Source: Alkalispirochaeta americana
GTDB lineage: Bacteria > Spirochaetota > Spirochaetia > DSM-27196 > Alkalispirochaetaceae
NCBI RefSeq assembly: GCF_900156105.1
Contig: NZ_FTMS01000003.1
Location: 1 to 64,000, forward strand
Reading direction: 5' to 3'
Length of the DNA stretch: 64,000 nucleotides
Positions 906-9,770 of this stretch are shown here, piece by piece. How positions within the stretch are numbered: position 1 is the stretch's first letter; every line of letters starts with the position of its first letter. The position numbers were made by a program, and so were the translations under genes. The notes beneath the pieces are model-generated. The model was given only the letters and a program-made list of their open reading frames with translations, was not told where the DNA came from and made no database searches.

Positions 906-1979
906 ATGATTCCCACATTTCGACCTACTATCAGACGGGCTGACATGGATGCGGTCCTCACACGGCTTGCCGAAGACTCCATCGGTTCGGGCGTCTTGGC
1001 AAGCGAGTTTTCACAGAAGCTGGCCAAGTATCTCAACCGTCGCAGTGGGGTGTCCTTGCGTAGCTGGGGTTTGGCCTTTCGCGCGGCTCTCACGGCCTTG
1101 ACTCTGCCTGCAGGGGCGCGAATCGGTTGTTCCGTCCTGGCGCCGGAAGCAGTTCGTCGTCAAATAGAGCTAATGGGCTTTGAAGCGGTGCTCCTGGACA
1201 CACAAAAGGAAGTCCCTCTTCTTCCTTCTCCCCTGAACGTGGATTATGAGATATTCCGCCTGGATGCAATCTACGTTGACACTCGGTTGGGGTTCGTGGC
1301 CGATCTGGAAAGCTTCTCCCAACTTGGGATTCCCCTTATCGAGGACGTATCGGAGGGGCTCGGGGGAAACACGGGGAGCGTCATGGCCGGCAGTGTGGGC
1401 GAACTTGCCATAATCGGTCTTGAGCCGGATCATATCATTACTGCAGGAGGCGGGGCGGTGGTTGCTACAAGTAACACTCGCCGGGTCTCGGCCCTGAATA
1501 GCGCCGTGAACGGGGAGTCGGGTGATCTGCCTCTTCCCGACATGAACTCCGCCTTGGGGCTCACTCAAATGAAACAGCTCGAGACGTTCATAGAACGTCG
1601 CAGAGAGCTGGCTCGAAGATTCATGCGAACACTGCAGCGAACTCGCCACTCTCTGCCCGTGCAGCCGGGAGAGGGCGAAAACGTCTATTTTGCGCTTCCC
1701 GTGCTGGTGGAAAGCTCGCCCCGGGACGTGGAACACTACGCACGAACTCACGGGGTGACAGTGATCCGCGCCTTCCAGGAGACCATTTTGAATGCCCTCT
1801 CCGATGCCGACACCTCCCGGGAGGAGCCTCCTGAAGCCGACTCTGAATCCGGGACGGTTCTGGAACGGTATCCTCACGCCCTTTCCTTGGCGGGGCGAAT
1901 GGTTCTGTTTCCTCTCTTTCCCACATTGAGCAAGGCTGACCAGGAGCGGATTGAACGCGTTCTCGCTACGCTTCCCTGA
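906..1979 (+). CDS. DegT/DnrJ/EryC1-like protein lacking the PLP lysine
   Basis: This 357-residue protein has the layout of the DegT/DnrJ/EryC1/StrS sugar aminotransferase family (fold type I, PLP). Its N-terminus, MIPTFRPTIRRADMD, is typical, and LIEDVSEGLGG around 144-154 carries the aspartate (D147) that normally contacts the PLP pyridine nitrogen. The conserved SFxPTK-x-GEGG block reads GLEPDHIITAGGG instead, placing His176 where the Schiff-base lysine belongs. It is therefore unlikely to be a normal aminotransferase and may be a PLP-free dehydratase-like, binding or structural paralogue. It sits 17 bases after cheW and about 100 bases before nadK, so it is probably co-transcribed. Substrate unknown. 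Confidence 0.72.
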   Translation: MIPTFRPTIRRADMDAVLTRLAEDSIGSGVLASEFSQKLAKYLNRRSGVSLRSWGLAFRAALTALTLPAGARIGCSVLAPEAVRRQIELMGFEAVLLDTQKEVPLLPSPLNVDYEIFRLDAIYVDTRLGFVADLESFSQLGIPLIEDVSEGLGGNTGSVMAGSVGELAIIGLEPDHIITAGGGAVVATSNTRRVSALNSAVNGESGDLPLPDMNSALGLTQMKQLETFIERRRELARRFMRTLQRTRHSLPVQPGEGENVYFALPVLVESSPRDVEHYARTHGVTVIRAFQETILNALSDADTSREEPPEADSESGTVLERYPHALSLAGRMVLFPLFPTLSKADQERIERVLATLP

Positions 1980-2074: not shown

Positions 2075-2938
2075 ATGCCAGTGAAAGACCCAATCCAATC
2101 GGTGCTGGTCATTGCCAACACCGCAAAAGCCGGAGCCCGTGAACTTGCTGGTGAGATCGAATCCTATTGCATCCACCGCGGGTTGAGGGCCCTGGTTGTG
2201 CTTTACGAGGGAGAGTCCTCATCTCTCCCCGAAAAAGACGGCTTCGATCTGGCTATAACCCTGGGTGGAGATGGGACTGTCCTTTTTGCAAGCCGGGTCC
2301 TCGCCGGGCACAACGTGCCGATTCTCCCGGTGAACCTGGGTGATTTTGGTTTCATCAGCGAAGTTGGTCACGACGAATGGCAGCAAGCTCTGGAACGATA
2401 TCTTGCTGGAGGGATCGATATCGGAGATCGTCTGGTGCTGGATGTAGAAGTAGTGCGAGAGGGGAAGCCTCTCTGCGCCTTCCGGGGGCTGAACGATGCC
2501 GTTGTTTCTTCGGAAGGCATATCCCGGATGATACGGCTCACGGTTCGCTTAAGCGATCAGTATCTGGGGGTCTATCGAGCTGATGGGGTGATGGTCGCCA
2601 CTCCCACGGGCTCAACAGCCTATTCTGCTGCCGCAGGGGGGCCTATTCTCCACCCTGAGATGGAGGCAATGATTCTCAATCCGATCTGTCCGTTCACCCT
2701 GTCTCACCGACCAATTGTTATTCCTCCCGATGAAGTGGTGGAAATATCGATTGCGCAGGAGCAACGGACAGAGGTTGCCCTGACTGTGGATGGTCAGACC
2801 CTGACGCCTCTGGTCCAGGGAGATGCCGTAATCGTGCGGGCCAGCCCGAAAAAGGCGAGGATTGTTCGCTCCGATCGAAGAACGTTCTATGAAGTCCTCC
2901 GAAGCAAACTGAATTGGGCGGGTGGTTTGGATGATTGA
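2075..2938 (+). CDS. nadK: NAD kinase (ATP/polyphosphate-NAD phosphotransferase)
   Basis: This 287-residue protein phosphorylates NAD to NADP in the cytoplasm. It shows the kinase signature LGGDGTVLFA with the GGDG loop, the downstream PVNLGDFGF block, and the second conserved region TPTGSTAYSAAAGGPI followed by NPICPFTLSHRP. Length matches bacterial NadK. The ATG at 2075 is preferred over an in-phase start at 2000 because GCAGGGGAG lies just upstream and homology begins with the VLVIANTAKAGA strand. The gene overlaps recN by 8 bases, suggesting translational coupling; nadK-recN adjacency is common in bacteria. Confidence 0.95.
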   Translation: MPVKDPIQSVLVIANTAKAGARELAGEIESYCIHRGLRALVVLYEGESSSLPEKDGFDLAITLGGDGTVLFASRVLAGHNVPILPVNLGDFGFISEVGHDEWQQALERYLAGGIDIGDRLVLDVEVVREGKPLCAFRGLNDAVVSSEGISRMIRLTVRLSDQYLGVYRADGVMVATPTGSTAYSAAAGGPILHPEMEAMILNPICPFTLSHRPIVIPPDEVVEISIAQEQRTEVALTVDGQTLTPLVQGDAVIVRASPKKARIVRSDRRTFYEVLRSKLNWAGGLDD

Positions 2939-4643
2939 GCGCATAACAGTCCGCAATTTTATTCTGGTTGAGCACCTTGAGCTGGATTTTACCCCGGGAT
3001 TCACCGTGTTGACAGGAGAAACCGGGGCAGGAAAAAGTATTCTCGTGGGTGCCCTCTCGTTGCTCTTTGGCGGAAAGGGAGGGGCCGATCTGGTTCGTGC
3101 CGGTGCTCAGGAAGCGATGGTGGCGGGGGAATTCAATGTGGCAGGTCATACTGAGTGTGCATCCTGGCTCTCCTCCCGCGACATTGCCCCCGATGAGGGA
3201 GTCGTGCTGATTCGACGTACCGTGAAGACCTCCGGTCGCGGAACGATTTATATGCAGGATGTTCCTGTGACCCGGAGTGATCTGGAGGAATTTGCCGGAT
3301 TCCTGCTTGATTTACACAGTCAGCATGAACACCAATCACTCTTTCATGAGAGTTCTCACCGCCGCCTGGTTGACCGCTATGCGGGAATCGAAGCGGACGT
3401 GGCCCGGTACGGCGAGGATTTTTCCCGTCTGGGAGATGTGCAACAGCAGTTGCAACGTCTGAGAGAACGGGAAAAAGATCGCCAGCGCGAAATTGAAATG
3501 CTCGAGTTTTCGCTCCAGGAAATAGAATCGGCAGGAATACGTCCCGGCGAGTGGGACGATCTGGAGATAGAGAGAGCAAAACTGGTCCAGTACGAAAAAC
3601 TGGCAACTCACATTGAGGCAGTCTGCCACCTGACTGATTCTTCTCTTGCGGGAACACCTTCCCTGGTGGAACAGCTCAAAACAGCCAGGATCGAGCTTGC
3701 GGCTGCCGCCCGAATAGATCCATCCCTGGAGGGAGAGGCCTCACGACTGGAGAACTCCTACTACGAGATGGAAGATCTTCTTCAGTCGGTGACGGGGTAT
3801 CGTGATCAAATGGTTTATGATCCGGCCCGACTGGATGTGATAGAAGAACGGCTGGGTCTGTTGCGGGGGCTCTTCAGGAAATACGGCGAGACGGAAGAGC
3901 AGGTTTTGCGCTACGCCGAGGAGGCAAGAGTTTCTCTGGCCGAGATAGAAAAGGCTGGAGAGAGCCGTGAAAAGCTGACTCATGATATCCTTCTGCTGGA
4001 GCAACGCCTTGGGCAGGAAGCCCGGCGACTCAGCTCCCTTCGCAGTGAGGCCGGTCAAGGCCTGCAGAAACAGATTCGGGAGGTTCTTGCAGAGCTGGCC
4101 ATGGGGCGGGCGGAATTTATCGTCTCGGTTCAGATCAGAACAGGTGAATCAGGCCGGCTCATCTGTGGGCCCCACGGTGCTGATCGAATCCGATTCTTGA
4201 TTTCCACAAACATCGGGGAAGAACCCCGTCCCCTTTCCCAGGTTGCTTCGGGAGGAGAACTCTCGCGGATAATGCTGGCTATCAAGACGGTCCTGGCCGG
4301 TAGCGATGATCTGCGCACGCTGGTCTTTGATGAGATAGATACGGGAATTGGAGGCCAGGTGGCGCTGGCTCTGGCAGCCCACTTGCGAAGTCTGGCAGAC
4401 CACACCCAGGTGATTTGCATTACGCACCTTGCGACGATCGCTGTTCGTGCCGATAATCATATAGCGGTGGAGAAACATGTAGAGGGCGATCGTACGATTA
4501 TTTCCGCACGGAAGCTCGCTGATCAGGATTGCGTGCAAGAGATAGCCCGGATGCTCTCTGGTGATGGCCAGGAGACGCACAGTGTGGAGCACGCCCGCGC
4601 CCTGCTTGACCGCTATCGGGGAGATGCTCATGGGAAAGATTAG
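2931..4643 (+). CDS. recN: DNA repair protein RecN (SMC-like ATPase)
   Basis: This 570-residue RecN is the SMC-family ATPase that acts at double-strand breaks before RecA-dependent recombination. It has an N-terminal Walker A, GETGAGKS (about 29-36), then a charged coiled coil over roughly residues 150-380. The ABC signature ASGGELSR lies near 438, and the Walker B region LVFDEIDTGIGG near 462. An ATG at 2931 inside the end of nadK is chosen; a GTG three codons earlier is possible. Its last 14 bases overlap the next gene, indicating a nadK-recN-4630 operon. Confidence 0.95.
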   Translation: MIERITVRNFILVEHLELDFTPGFTVLTGETGAGKSILVGALSLLFGGKGGADLVRAGAQEAMVAGEFNVAGHTECASWLSSRDIAPDEGVVLIRRTVKTSGRGTIYMQDVPVTRSDLEEFAGFLLDLHSQHEHQSLFHESSHRRLVDRYAGIEADVARYGEDFSRLGDVQQQLQRLREREKDRQREIEMLEFSLQEIESAGIRPGEWDDLEIERAKLVQYEKLATHIEAVCHLTDSSLAGTPSLVEQLKTARIELAAAARIDPSLEGEASRLENSYYEMEDLLQSVTGYRDQMVYDPARLDVIEERLGLLRGLFRKYGETEEQVLRYAEEARVSLAEIEKAGESREKLTHDILLLEQRLGQEARRLSSLRSEAGQGLQKQIREVLAELAMGRAEFIVSVQIRTGESGRLICGPHGADRIRFLISTNIGEEPRPLSQVASGGELSRIMLAIKTVLAGSDDLRTLVFDEIDTGIGGQVALALAAHLRSLADHTQVICITHLATIAVRADNHIAVEKHVEGDRTIISARKLADQDCVQEIARMLSGDGQETHSVEHARALLDRYRGDAHGKD

Positions 4644-5445
4644 TAATGAAGCGCGGCAACAGTACTTCGAGCGAATAAAAGAGTACAAGCATACCGCTGA
4701 AGCGATTTTGCAGCGTGAGAAGAGTCTTCTCAAAGTTATCGCAGGCGATCAGAGCGGGGCCAGTTATAAGTACCTTACGCTGGCGGAAGATCGCTTGAAT
4801 ATGGCCTCCTATTTCTTGTTGCAGAATGCCCTCTCGGTAACCCTTCTGGGGGTAAAAAATGAGGCCTTTCTCAACGACGCACGAAAGAGTTGTTATCAGT
4901 CGGTGATTTACCTGGAAGAAGTCGTCTCCAGTCACATCGATCTCCCTTTTTCGGAATATTCCGAATTTCTGGAGTCGATTGACGGTATTTCCGACGAGAA
5001 TCGCTATCGGCTTGCACGAAAATTGGGCTTTACCATCCAGTCGGTTGTAGATGCTTTCGGGCGTAATTCAAAATGGCGCTGGTCTTTTGTGGAGCTCGAG
5101 GGGCGCTACGCTGCGGTAGCAAAGAACCTGGTGAATTTCAAGACCTTTCTGGCTGGAATGGATCCTCAGGAAGAGGGGTATCAGGCTCGAATGGGGATGC
5201 TGGAGCTGATCATCTACCTCTTGAGCCAATCGGCCGACCGATACCGGGAGAAGTACGAGCTTTCCACTCTCCGTATCGACGATTTCAAGAGGGCTATATC
5301 CTTTCTTGCTGCTTTGCGCCGCATCTACACAGTCCTGGGAGAGGCTGAAAAAGCAGAGGACGTGAAGAAGAAGATGGAAGTCTGGAAAGCGAAGATGGAT
5401 GCCGACGAGAAAAACCAGGCGCAACAGCGGAAGCGCAAGGGATAG
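4630..5445 (+). CDS. Conserved spirochaete protein of unknown function, helical
   Basis: This 271-residue protein has no signal peptide and no membrane segment. It is almost entirely predicted helix, rich in Arg, Lys and Glu, and ends in a very basic, Gln-rich tail (KMDADEKNQAQQRKRKG). No enzyme motif was recognised. The start at 4630 is chosen because GGGGAG ends six bases upstream; it lies inside the 3' end of recN, so expression is likely coupled to recN. Proteins of this appearance occur downstream of recN in treponemes, as far as I recall. A role connected with DNA repair or chromosome structure is inference only. Confidence 0.7.
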   Translation: MGKISNEARQQYFERIKEYKHTAEAILQREKSLLKVIAGDQSGASYKYLTLAEDRLNMASYFLLQNALSVTLLGVKNEAFLNDARKSCYQSVIYLEEVVSSHIDLPFSEYSEFLESIDGISDENRYRLARKLGFTIQSVVDAFGRNSKWRWSFVELEGRYAAVAKNLVNFKTFLAGMDPQEEGYQARMGMLELIIYLLSQSADRYREKYELSTLRIDDFKRAISFLAALRRIYTVLGEAEKAEDVKKKMEVWKAKMDADEKNQAQQRKRKG

Positions 5446-5450
5446 TTCTG

Positions 5451-6566
5451 GTGGGAGCAGTTTTACGGATACTTCTTCTCGGGCTGGCCGCAGTTTCCGT
5501 GGCCTTGGTTGTGCCTCGTGCGGCAGGTGACGAGCTCCAGGTGCGAATCCGTTGGGATCGGGTGATCTCTCAGGAGATGGTAGCCCTGTCCGAGTCAGGA
5601 GGGTGGTCCTTTGGAAAGGGCCTTTTCGCTGTCGGGCGAAGCACTCTGGGCGTTTTCTCCGAACCTGACGGAGAGATCCTCTCCAAGGCGATTCGCCATC
5701 GCGCTTTTTCAAGTTCCGGTGATTTTTATATAAATCAGGCGGGGACGATTGCTGATCGATGGGTTGTCACCAACCGACGAACCGGAGCTGTCAGCTTTCA
5801 TGAGCGCCGGGGGGTTCCCCGCTTGTATGGCTCTATCCTCGCGCAGTTCGCAACGCGGACGATAACGCTTCGGGACAGCCGCTACGGAGGGAAAATCCAT
5901 CTTCCCCGAAGAGTGGCTCTTTCTGCCTTTGATGCACTTCCTGGTCGGGGGGATGAGGGAGATTTCGGGTTTGCTGTTCTGGGCGACCTTTTTGGGGAAG
6001 TATCGTTCCACCGGCTGGATTTCAAGGGAATCGAAGAGGAACAGTACTTTTTAGCCTCCGCAATGGGTCCGGTATTCGGGATAAAGCTCATATCCGGAAA
6101 CACTCCCCATGTGCTGGTTGTTCGTGGGCGTGATCCCCAGATGGTAGAGCTTTTTCGGTATGGCGATAAGGAGCCCCGGATGCGGGAAGAGATCCCCCCT
6201 GAAGCGGCTGTGAAGGAGCCTCTGGCATTTCACGAGATGAGTGATTTCCTGATGATGGTCGGGTTAAAGGAGCGCTTTCTTGTTCTCGACAGTCAGGCCA
6301 ATGAGCTTCGGTATAGCAATGCTTCCATGGCGGGAGCTGTTGCAGCGGTGATCCCAGGTGCGGGGGGAGAACTCCTGGTCGCCGCCGCACAGGATCAGGG
6401 CCTCTCCCTGGCCTTGTGGACCCTTGCCGGCTTTGATCGCCCCCGAGAGGATCGCCGGGGACCTGTGGCCTGGTCCGTGCCGGGAGCCCGCTTTGCTGCA
6501 GCGGGAGAGGATCTTCTGGTGGTCGAGCGAAACGATCGCTTCTTTGCGCTTGAGGTGACACGATGA
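5451..6566 (+). CDS. Predicted exported protein, probably beta-rich, unknown function
   Basis: This is a 371-residue protein starting at GTG. It has a clear signal peptide (basic start, hydrophobic core about residues 5-20, cleavage probably near PRAAGDE). The mature part is rich in short beta-strand-like stretches with recurring aromatic/Gly-Asp turns, such as FGFAVLGDLFGEVSFHRLD and LLVVERNDRFFALEV. That pattern resembles beta-propeller or WD-like repeats, though no named family was recognised. It begins five bases after the previous gene and overlaps the next one by four bases (ATGA). The pair 5451/6563 probably acts together in the periplasm. Confidence 0.65.
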   Translation: MGAVLRILLLGLAAVSVALVVPRAAGDELQVRIRWDRVISQEMVALSESGGWSFGKGLFAVGRSTLGVFSEPDGEILSKAIRHRAFSSSGDFYINQAGTIADRWVVTNRRTGAVSFHERRGVPRLYGSILAQFATRTITLRDSRYGGKIHLPRRVALSAFDALPGRGDEGDFGFAVLGDLFGEVSFHRLDFKGIEEEQYFLASAMGPVFGIKLISGNTPHVLVVRGRDPQMVELFRYGDKEPRMREEIPPEAAVKEPLAFHEMSDFLMMVGLKERFLVLDSQANELRYSNASMAGAVAAVIPGAGGELLVAAAQDQGLSLALWTLAGFDRPREDRRGPVAWSVPGARFAAAGEDLLVVERNDRFFALEVTR

Positions 6567-7366
6567 TTGTGACTGTGGGCCTTCTTCTTCTCGCTTTGGT
6601 CCTTTCGCCTGCCGGGGCGCTTGAGGAGGGGTGGGGCTGGCCTGTGGATGGATCTTTTGATCTTGAAGAAGGAAATTCTGCAGCGGGATTTGTCTATCGC
6701 CTGGTTCCTCGTTCCCGGGACAACGCCCTCCGGGCCATCGCTCCGGGAGAGGTAATCTTTCGATCCAGCCCCCCCCGGACAGAATCGCTTCGAACCTCGG
6801 CTATACCTCGGGAGGCGAACTTTGTGGCGATCCGGCACCGGGAGGGGTTTATTTCCGGCTACTTTAGCGAAGGGTCGCTCGAGGGCTTCCCCCGGCAGGG
6901 AAGTGGCAAGGAGGAACATCTTGCCTGGATCGATGTAGTTCTGTGGGATGAAGTTCTTCAGGATCAGGTTAATCCCCGCCTTTTGTGGTCCGAGCCGGAA
7001 GTCTTTGGAAAAACCGGCTTGCCCCAGGTTGAGTTTGTTCAGCAGGGAGATCCGGTGCACCCCTCGGCTTTGATGGAAGGAGAGGTGGTCTTGCGCATTC
7101 CTCCCGGAAGCCTTGATGCTTCACGGTTGCCGTGGGAAATACGCCTTCTTGAAGGGCGAGAGAAAAAAGTACAACAACGATTTGTGTTTCCCCGGGATCT
7201 TGATCGGTTTGAAGAACCCTCCGGGGGCTTTGAGCTTTTTCGCTTCGACGCACGTCCTGGGCGGGGGGCCTTCGTGCTGGAGGCGGTGCGGTTTGATCGG
7301 ACGTTGCAGCGAAGAACCCTGCGCTTTACCGTCCGGGAGGATCAGTCTGCCCAGCCCGGCCCTTGA
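6563..7366 (+). CDS. Exported protein resembling a degenerate M23/LytM domain
   Basis: This 267-residue protein has an N-terminal signal peptide (MIVTVGLLLLALVLSPAGA). The middle reads like an M23/LytM barrel: GWPVDG, then LRAIAPGEVIF, then ANFVAIRHREGFISGYF. These line up with WPMRG, VRAAASGRVVH and GRFVILRHADGFQTLYAHL of the genuine M23 protein at 61799. The zinc ligands (HxxxD and HxH) are missing, so it is probably a non-catalytic peptidoglycan-binding or activator protein. It overlaps the upstream exported gene by four bases. The LytM resemblance is my reading and would need a profile search. Confidence 0.62.
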   Translation: MIVTVGLLLLALVLSPAGALEEGWGWPVDGSFDLEEGNSAAGFVYRLVPRSRDNALRAIAPGEVIFRSSPPRTESLRTSAIPREANFVAIRHREGFISGYFSEGSLEGFPRQGSGKEEHLAWIDVVLWDEVLQDQVNPRLLWSEPEVFGKTGLPQVEFVQQGDPVHPSALMEGEVVLRIPPGSLDASRLPWEIRLLEGREKKVQQRFVFPRDLDRFEEPSGGFELFRFDARPGRGAFVLEAVRFDRTLQRRTLRFTVREDQSAQPGP

Positions 7367-7417: not shown

Positions 7418-8122
7418 GTGATTAGACGTCGCCTGGAAGAACTGTCCCTGCAAGCCCTTTTTACCCTGGCAGAGCAGAACGGGCTGGATCTTGGGCCGGA
7501 TACGGATCGTTCATCGGTTATCGAGGAGCTGCAGGATCTGATCGCTGAGAACCAAGAGGATCGGGAACAAAATAACAGTGTTACCGTTCAAATTCAGCAA
7601 AAAAAGTTTGCTCTGATCAACGATGACGATACGCCTCTGACAGGGGAGCAGCTGGATAGCTTTGAGCTTCCCGATGACTACGAGATAAACAAAATAACCC
7701 TGATGCTGAGGGATCCTCGCTGGGCCTTTGCTTACTGGGATTTAAGCTCGGCGAAGAAACGGGAGTACAGTGAGTCTTCCCGTTTTGACGGAATCTCCCT
7801 GCGGGTTATTGAGGTGGAGCGGGAAAAACAGGAGATCATCATTCGTGACTCCTTTGAGATTCCTGTGCAGCTGAGTGACTCAAGCTGGTACATACACATT
7901 CCCAGGCAACAGACTTCGTATCGAATTCAGCTGATCGGGCTGAACCAGCATCGTCGGGAACTTCTGGCTGTTTCCAATCGAGTGTACGTCCCGGCGGCTC
8001 ATTTGCCGGTGATGCCCGAGGCGATGACGCCCCAGCAGATGGCGCTCTTTGAGCTCTGCGGTATGGAGTATCTGGAAGTGAGTCCCTTCGGCAGCGACGC
8101 TGCACAGTCGACGCAGGAGTAA
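7418..8122 (+). CDS. DUF4912 domain protein, partner of GH57 branching enzyme
   Basis: This 234-residue protein starts at GTG with GGAGA seven bases upstream. The N-terminal 30 residues look like a Rho-N/SAP-type helical module (LEELSLQALFTLAEQNGLD). The DUF4912 domain follows: ITLMLRDPRWAFAYWDLS, then the beta-strand WYIHIPRQQTSYRIQLIGL. This domain often neighbours GH57/DUF1957 branching enzymes, and its fold resembles a carbohydrate-binding or SH2-like sandwich. The next gene is indeed GH57, eight bases away. A role in glycogen handling or in regulating the enzyme is inferred from context. Confidence 0.78.
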   Translation: MIRRRLEELSLQALFTLAEQNGLDLGPDTDRSSVIEELQDLIAENQEDREQNNSVTVQIQQKKFALINDDDTPLTGEQLDSFELPDDYEINKITLMLRDPRWAFAYWDLSSAKKREYSESSRFDGISLRVIEVEREKQEIIIRDSFEIPVQLSDSSWYIHIPRQQTSYRIQLIGLNQHRRELLAVSNRVYVPAAHLPVMPEAMTPQQMALFELCGMEYLEVSPFGSDAAQSTQE

Positions 8123-8129
8123 CATTATC

Positions 8130-9770
8130 GTGGGAAAATCTATCCTCATTCTTCATTCGCATTTGCCTTTGGTACGCCATCCTGAGTACGAAACGTTCCT
8201 GGAAGAGCGATGGCTCTTTGAGGCGATCAGCGAAACCTACCTTCCTTTGTTGCGGATGATGCACCGCCTTGATACCGAAGGAATTCCTTCGCCCATGGCG
8301 ATGTGCTTTTCGCCTACCTTGAGTTTCATGCTCCAGGATCCTCTTCTGATGGAGCGCTACGGGCGCTTCCTGGACAAGAACATTGAACTGGCAGAGCAGG
8401 AACTGGATCGGACAGCGGGCGAACCGGCTGTTCATTCCCTGGCTCGCATGTATCATTCCCGTTACACCACGGACCGCGAAGAGCTTCATTCTCTGTATGG
8501 AGGAAATATCCTCAAGGGTTTTGACCGCTTCGCCCGGAAGGGGACCATTGAGCTGATCGCCACGGCTGCCACGCATGCCTTTCTTCCCAATTACCGCAGC
8601 TATTCCGAGGTGGTTCGTTGCCAGGTGGAGCTGGGGGTCGAGAGTCATACAAAGCACTTTGGGCGTCCGCCCCGTGGCTTCTGGCTCCCCGAATGCGGCT
8701 ATTACGAGGGGCTTGACCGGATTCTCGCCGATGCGGGGGTCGAATATTTTGTTGGGGCTGCCCACGGGGTTCTCTTTGGCGAGCCCTCTCCCGATACGGG
8801 AACTTACGCACCTCTCGCTACAAAGGCGGGGGTTGCTGTTTTTCCTCGCGATGTCTACACAGCGACGTGGGTTTGGTCATCAAACCAGGGATATCCCACC
8901 AATCCCTCGTACCGGGATTTTTACCGCGATATCGGCTACGATCTCCCCCTGGAGCAGGTAGGGCCGTTTATCCACGATGGAAACGTCAGAATAGATACGG
9001 GATTCAAGTATCACGCCATTACCGGACCAACCGACGATAAAGAGCTTTATGACCAGGAGGCAGGACGACGAAAGGCCCGGGAACACGCCCGCGATTTCTA
9101 CACTCGCCAAAAAGAGCATAGTGCACGACTGGGAGAGGTTCTTTCCGCAGAACCTGTAATAACCAGCCCCTTTGACACTGAGCTCTTTGGTCATTGGTGG
9201 TTCGAGGGGCCACAGTGGCTGGAAGAACTTTTTCGTGTTGCCCACGAGGATCAGCAGGAGTGTGTGAAGGCCAACGGTGCAGAGGGCGCTCCTTTTTCCA
9301 TGACCACCCCGTCGTCCTATCTGGACGAGTTTGGCCCTGCCGGTGAGGTGGCTCCCACTTTTTCCAGTTGGGGGAGCGGGGGCTACGCCCAGGTTTGGAT
9401 GGATGGAACCAATGACTGGCTCTACCGCCACACCCATCAGGCAGTAGAGCGAATGGCTGAATTGGTGGCCCGGTTCCCCGATGAATCGGGGTTGAAGGAA
9501 CGCGCCCTGAACCAGGCAGCCCGGGAAGTCCTTCTTGCCATGGCCTCGGACTGGCCGTTCATCATGAACGCCCGCACCGTGGTGACCTACGCGGAACGAA
9601 GGGTCAAGGAACACCTGTACAATTTTACCCGGGTCTACGCAGCCCTCTCTCAGCGAAATATGGGAACCGAATGGCTCACGAGGCTCGAGAAAAAACACCC
9701 TCTGTTCCCTGACCTCAATTATCGCCGGATGAAACGGGCCACCACCGAGGCTTTGAGGGATCTGATCTGA
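8130..9770 (+). CDS. GH57 family 1,4-alpha-glucan branching enzyme (DUF1957 C-terminus)
   Basis: This 546-residue glycoside hydrolase family 57 enzyme probably forms alpha-1,6 branches in glycogen. It opens with LILHSHLPLVRHPE, the family HxHxP-type start. The probable catalytic nucleophile is Glu188 in FWLPECGY and the acid/base Asp349 in SPFDTELFGHWW; both spacings fit characterised GH57 branching enzymes. The C-terminal helical DUF1957 part includes ASDWPFIMNARTVVTYAERR. Start is GTG with CAGGAG ten bases upstream. It is the last gene of its transcription unit, with a strong terminator about 90 bases downstream. Confidence 0.93.
   Translation: MGKSILILHSHLPLVRHPEYETFLEERWLFEAISETYLPLLRMMHRLDTEGIPSPMAMCFSPTLSFMLQDPLLMERYGRFLDKNIELAEQELDRTAGEPAVHSLARMYHSRYTTDREELHSLYGGNILKGFDRFARKGTIELIATAATHAFLPNYRSYSEVVRCQVELGVESHTKHFGRPPRGFWLPECGYYEGLDRILADAGVEYFVGAAHGVLFGEPSPDTGTYAPLATKAGVAVFPRDVYTATWVWSSNQGYPTNPSYRDFYRDIGYDLPLEQVGPFIHDGNVRIDTGFKYHAITGPTDDKELYDQEAGRRKAREHARDFYTRQKEHSARLGEVLSAEPVITSPFDTELFGHWWFEGPQWLEELFRVAHEDQQECVKANGAEGAPFSMTTPSSYLDEFGPAGEVAPTFSSWGSGGYAQVWMDGTNDWLYRHTHQAVERMAELVARFPDESGLKERALNQAAREVLLAMASDWPFIMNARTVVTYAERRVKEHLYNFTRVYAALSQRNMGTEWLTRLEKKHPLFPDLNYRRMKRATTEALRDLI

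Follow-up and report, generated by a model that had tools for sequence, protein, structure and literature searches.

The window, by which we mean the whole stretch of DNA analysed here, comprises 64,000 nucleotides of the spirochaete Alkalispirochaeta americana, and the four genes named next lie close to its beginning, all on the forward strand. A cheW gene (409–888; PF01584) is followed by a gene for a protein of 357 residues (906–1979), by nadK, which encodes NAD kinase (2075–2938; PF01513/PF20143), and by a gene at 2934–4643 that we take to be recN and that, when used as a query in relatives, is found beside nadK there. A preliminary description based on the nucleotide sequence had placed the second of these genes between cheW and nadK, and the profile matches on either side bear this out.

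The product of this second gene is a homologue in the DegT/DnrJ/EryC1/StrS family, as given by a full-length match to PF01041 (residues 9–349, E 1.2e-20, 74.5 bits against a cut-off of 19.8) together with the DegT fold; a weak match to the Patatin profile (E 0.12) fell under the cut-off. The AlphaFold2 model, computed with 77 sequences as input, reached a pLDDT of 93.9 and a pTM of 0.92, and the DegT fold is retained whole in it. The top match among solved structures, as ranked by VIA-align, is GDP-perosamine synthase (Z 40.4, rmsd 2.3, 339 aligned residues), about equalled by ArnB; the entries 3dr4, 3bn1 and 1mdo all match the model with Z of about 40 and an rmsd of 2.2–2.3 over 339 residues, and the dehydratases E1 (3bcx_B, Z 38.5) and ColD (2gms_A, Z 37.8) stand slightly below the aminotransferases. 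The fold does not separate a dehydratase from an aminotransferase. With the DegT sugar aminotransferases of PF01041 (ArnB, PseC, GDP-perosamine synthase, Spr1654) the window protein has in common its fold, its length, the residues Asp147, Gly129, Thr179, Gln221 and Arg232, and an LPLYP-like motif near the C-terminus.

Where DegT enzymes have SFxxxK, the window protein has GLEPDH (residues 171–176), and when it is aligned pairwise with DegT enzymes of solved structure, His176 (codon CAT, 1431–1433) falls in the column of the lysine that forms the Schiff base. Asp147 (1344–1346), which we take to be the aspartate that pairs with the pyridine nitrogen, is present and is retained in 93 of 96 orthologues. 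The preliminary description had reported a DegT-family protein with histidine for lysine and with Asp147 kept, and the translation, the profile match and the alignments agree with it on each point. Another lysine in the catalytic position, the alternative that it had raised, was looked for and can be ruled out: the five lysines (38, 41, 101, 223 and 343) all lie outside the motif, and the family is invariant at none of these positions.

Homologues were drawn from named genome contigs (the best 80 of 430) and from the genomes of relatives, where 52 of 61 gave a match; the larger match count of 345/389 takes in ordinary DegT paralogues and is not a count of orthologues. The resulting alignment of orthologues from the window's class holds 96 distinct sequences out of 130 (the window and 129 other loci), four of them partial, and it was compared with ten ordinary spirochaete DegT paralogues that had been picked as weaker matches to the query and not at random. 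Lysine occupies column 176 in all ten of these paralogues, whereas among the class orthologues the same column holds Asp in 30, Gly in 24, His in 16, Asn in eight, Ser in six, Ala in four, Cys in three, Lys in three and other residues in two. The three orthologues with lysine (L033, L034 and L037) belong to one genus, the other sampled member of which (L036) has methionine. The alignment thus shows the lysine to have been lost throughout the class orthologue family, bar this one genus, and because close homologues lack it throughout the class, the loss in the window protein is not a matter of chance. Histidine is constant within the window's own family (eight of eight sequences), and since a catalytic base would not vary as column 176 does, His176 is an incidental state of that lineage, one of several residues that stand there elsewhere.

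The remaining contacts to the cofactor can be followed by comparison with Spr1654, for which PMC5936713 reports that Thr59 and Ser194 bind the PLP phosphate directly and Glu205 and Gly206 through water, that Tyr84 touches the PLP ring, His173 the O3' and Lys199 makes the covalent bond, and that His196, equivalent to His185 of ArnB, lines the sugar pocket. Mapped by hand from motif spacing, with no alignment tool, Thr59, Ser194, Glu205 and Gly206 correspond to Gly55 (1068–1070), Gly171, Gly182 and Gly183 of the window protein, and Tyr84, His173, Lys199 and His196 to Pro80, Glu150, His176 and Glu173. Column 55 holds many different residues among the class orthologues, as against threonine in all ten ordinary DegTs, and the phosphate-binding threonine is retained in just three of the 40 class sequences used for the tree described below. 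The stacking aromatic residue at position 80 has become proline in 86 of the 96 orthologues; at position 182 glycine replaces glutamate in 92, a state also seen in some ordinary DegTs, and Gly183 is retained in 95. The segment at residues about 200–210 (1503–1535) is shortened, where ordinary DegTs have a longer inter-subunit loop ending in GYNYR or GFKYN: at 200–209 the ordinary DegTs have a median of 23 residues, compared with 17 for homologues from other classes and ten within the class. Set against the active sugar aminotransferases, the window protein therefore differs in the absence of the Schiff-base lysine, of the phosphate-binding Thr and Ser (Gly55, Gly171) and of the stacking aromatic, in the change of EGG to GGG, in the shortened inter-subunit loop and in an Arg52–Glu173 pair that is new, with the pyridine aspartate still in place.

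These losses bear directly on the proposal that the protein resembles ColD and E1 in being a PMP-dependent dehydratase, with His176 taking over from lysine as the catalytic base. The fold and, in this species, the histidine are indeed what one sees in ColD, E1 and SpnQ: the catalytic histidine of E1 (3bcx) aligns with His176, the fold matches include chains of both ColD and E1, and the histidine is uniform in the window's own family. It varies among the orthologues, however, and is found in just 16 of 96 members of what is one clade in one syntenic place. According to PMC8987622, what chiefly sets ColD and E1 apart from aminotransferases is the exchange of Lys for His, and PMP still binds, whereas here the phosphate threonine, the aromatic residue and the loop are gone as well. 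The same source ascribes the four cysteines that hold a [2Fe-2S] cluster to E1 and SpnQ only, ColD having none; the window protein has one cysteine (Cys75), so that there is no E1-type [2Fe-2S] site in it. Given a histidine that varies among orthologues and cofactor anchors that have been lost, we reject a PMP-type dehydratase as very improbable. The preliminary description had offered a choice between such an enzyme and a non-catalytic paralogue; only the second half of it stands, and it extends through most of the phylum.

While the old contacts have disappeared, other positions have become conserved. Arg52 (1059–1061), three residues ahead of the lost phosphate-binding threonine, is found in 80 of the 96 orthologues, and position 173 (1422–1424), at the sugar-pocket site of His185 of ArnB, is Glu in 85 and Asp in seven. 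In the set used for the tree, Arg52 is present in 35 and Glu173 in 37 of the 40 class sequences; in the other groups neither ranks among the most frequent residues at its position. The residues at 52 and 173 are paired as R/E in 79 of the 96 orthologues, R/D in one, K/D in three, A/D in two, I/D in one, V/A in two and M/A in one; the glutamate is kept with an altered residue 52 in S/E (two), N/E (two) and A/E (one), and two sequences have a gap at 52. The two positions thus covary, to which shared ancestry contributes, and the pattern lends support to an ion pair without amounting to proof. A further basic residue, Arg11, is present in all 40 class sequences and is Arg or Lys in all 40 from other classes, as against none of 19 ordinary DegTs; judged by these alignments it is a marker of the whole lineage, within the class and outside it. 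The three class orthologues that bear lysine at 176 lack the phosphate threonine and have both Arg52 and Glu173.

Outside the class, a match was obtained in 42 of 44 spirochaete genomes at the thresholds used. The lysine is missing from 38 of the 42 best matches, which have Met, Asp, Ser, Gly, His, Arg or Glu instead, and is retained in four (L217, L218, L230 and L232). Among the 40 other-class sequences of the tree set, the phosphate threonine is kept in 23, the serine in 25 and Asp147 in 39. A careful maximum-likelihood tree was computed with the lysine column omitted, from 92 sequences (75 homologues from the class and from other classes, and 17 ordinary DegTs); seven of an initial 99 had been dropped, three for their long branches and four by thinning. 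A support of 100/100 separates the 75 homologues from the 17 ordinary DegTs, and an equal support unites the class orthologues in a single group. Changes between lysine and other residues number three on this tree and five on a quick tree of all 99 sequences. The lysine-bearing members from other classes branch early, on weak branches and with a root given by ordinary DegTs that are spirochaete paralogues only. Our reading of this pattern is that a long-established aminotransferase lineage of the phylum would have lost the lysine first and the phosphate anchors and the loop later.

The same counts are relevant to the possibility that the protein binds PLP or PMP non-covalently, as a sensor or carrier of B6 vitamers without catalysis, which overlaps in part with the reading as a non-catalytic pseudo-aminotransferase given below. 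The near-constancy of Asp147 inside and outside the class would fit such a role, as would the frequent retention of the phosphate Thr and Ser in other classes despite the loss of lysine. In the window's own class, however, that threonine has almost disappeared, and Asp147 may be structural or belong to a new charged cluster; we regard the proposal as rather unlikely.

The genomic context of the gene is stable. Among 80 named loci, 69 have 500 or more bases of upstream sequence, and cheW lies directly upstream in 60 of them; nadK lies at most 300 bases downstream in 72 of the 78 that extend 500 bases or more in that direction, and recN is present in 67 of the 69 that extend 2000 bases or more; the carriers include Alkalispirochaeta alkalica, Treponema denticola, Gracilinema caldarium and Sphaerochaeta halotolerans. 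In comparison with A. alkalica, dN/dS is 0.067 for the degT-like gene, 0.071 for recN, 0.035 for nadK and 0.023 for cheW, and a value of about 0.07 indicates that the window gene is under purifying selection. That it might be a functionless gene in decay is suggested by the loss of its catalytic residues and by its absence from some lineages, the Borrelia-like genomes among them, and is nonetheless next to impossible: its dN/dS is similar to that of recN, the frames are intact among the matches listed, with neither frameshifts nor relaxed selection in many lineages, 13 columns are invariant among 45 sequences, and a Treponema-kind genome of 1.14 Mb retains the gene, with Asp at position 176.

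The position of cheW raises the alternative that the protein is a chemotaxis accessory partnering the CheW encoded upstream. The adjacency just described is the argument for it. Against it, none of 11 genomes of a Sphaerochaeta-type family (so taken because S. halotolerans groups with them) has a CheW match, and all 11 have the degT-like gene, with nadK and recN beside it in every locus read. Conversely, four of four Borrelia-like genomes, an identity that we infer, have CheW and give no DegT match at 1e-20, and in both Borrelia-like loci read, as in one further genome, cheW, nadK and recN follow one another with no DegT gene between them. Retention where all CheW is gone shows the gene to be independent of chemotaxis, and we consider a role as CheW partner highly improbable.

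Parts of this arrangement recur in the other classes. The order cheW, degT-like gene, nadK, recN is found in one genome and the order without cheW in two, and in further loci cheW (one) or nadK (two) is nearby. L218 is one of these two and has the lysine, so that it may represent an active ancestral form still located near the same partner. A QueD/PTPS gene, in place of nadK and recN, is a close neighbour in 11 of the 42 other-class loci, its identity given in three of them by PF01242 and by scores above the NCBIfam QueD cut-off. A PTPS match is present in 16 of the 36 genomes tested and absent from 20, including the window's own, which rules out an obligate link to queuosine or pterin.

We consider it highly probable that the window protein is a non-catalytic pseudo-aminotransferase, with a DegT fold and a descent from sugar aminotransferases, which has lost nearly all of its cofactor contacts and has been kept for another job. 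It is presumably still a dimer, and from its residues we infer that it performs no PLP chemistry, with the caveat that the near-invariant Asp147 could still bind a pyridine ring. Some members of the wider lineage may be active, since lysine occurs in three class and four of 42 other-class homologues, some of the latter with the phosphate threonine. Pseudoenzymes of PLP fold-type I, in which the fold is kept, the lysine lost and the gene conserved, are a general kind that the window protein resembles. Searches of the literature for DegT-family or spirochaete pseudoenzymes of this kind found no description; those on nadK, recN or cheW of Treponema and on spirochaete DegT aminotransferases gave only papers that looked unrelated, on the oral microbiome in the first case, and nothing was found under spsC of Treponema pallidum or under TP0440, a presumed locus name. 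PMC6522883, retrieved for DegT and pseudoenzyme, describes no DegT pseudoenzyme in its available part.

If the pseudo-aminotransferase reading is right, Arg52, Glu173 and Asp147 might form a charged site in the old cofactor and sugar pocket, which would either accommodate a small anionic ligand on which no chemistry is done, or shut the pocket, and the protein would most plausibly act as a ligand-sensing or scaffolding subunit. NadK and RecN would be the first candidates for partners by position, their genes staying adjacent even without cheW. A fuller version is offered tentatively and is, as a whole, doubtful: the pocket, remodelled around an Arg–Glu–Asp cluster, would sense some metabolite that is not PLP, and the protein would regulate the adjacent housekeeping partner, NAD kinase or RecN in the class and the pterin/queuosine enzyme QueD elsewhere, in a lineage that is ancient in the phylum and that even a very small genome has retained. 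Since the degT-like genes match sugar-aminotransferase models, they risk being annotated as enzymes, and if they are pseudoenzymes this would mislead the reconstruction of pathways in spirochaetes, among them pathogens. The lineage would also offer a case of stepwise loss of a PLP site with some lysine-bearing members surviving, and the fact that a reduced genome has retained the gene speaks for a conserved spirochaete function yet to be discovered.

A few features around the cluster may be recorded. Just upstream of cheW, at 1–88, is a 5S rRNA gene (RF00001, 61.2 bits) that the start of the window truncates to its 3' portion, and in two Sphaerochaeta-type loci the frames upstream of the degT-like gene resemble, by eye only, read-through of rRNA genes. 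Long frames in three other loci, likewise judged by eye, reflect read-through in frame from upstream, in which no domain can be recognised, and give no clue to a fusion. Past recN, three open reading frames (4561–5445, 5451–6566 and 6563–7366) have no Pfam match above cut-off, and they are followed at 7418–9770 by a DUF4912 protein and then a homologue of GH57-type glucan-branching enzymes.
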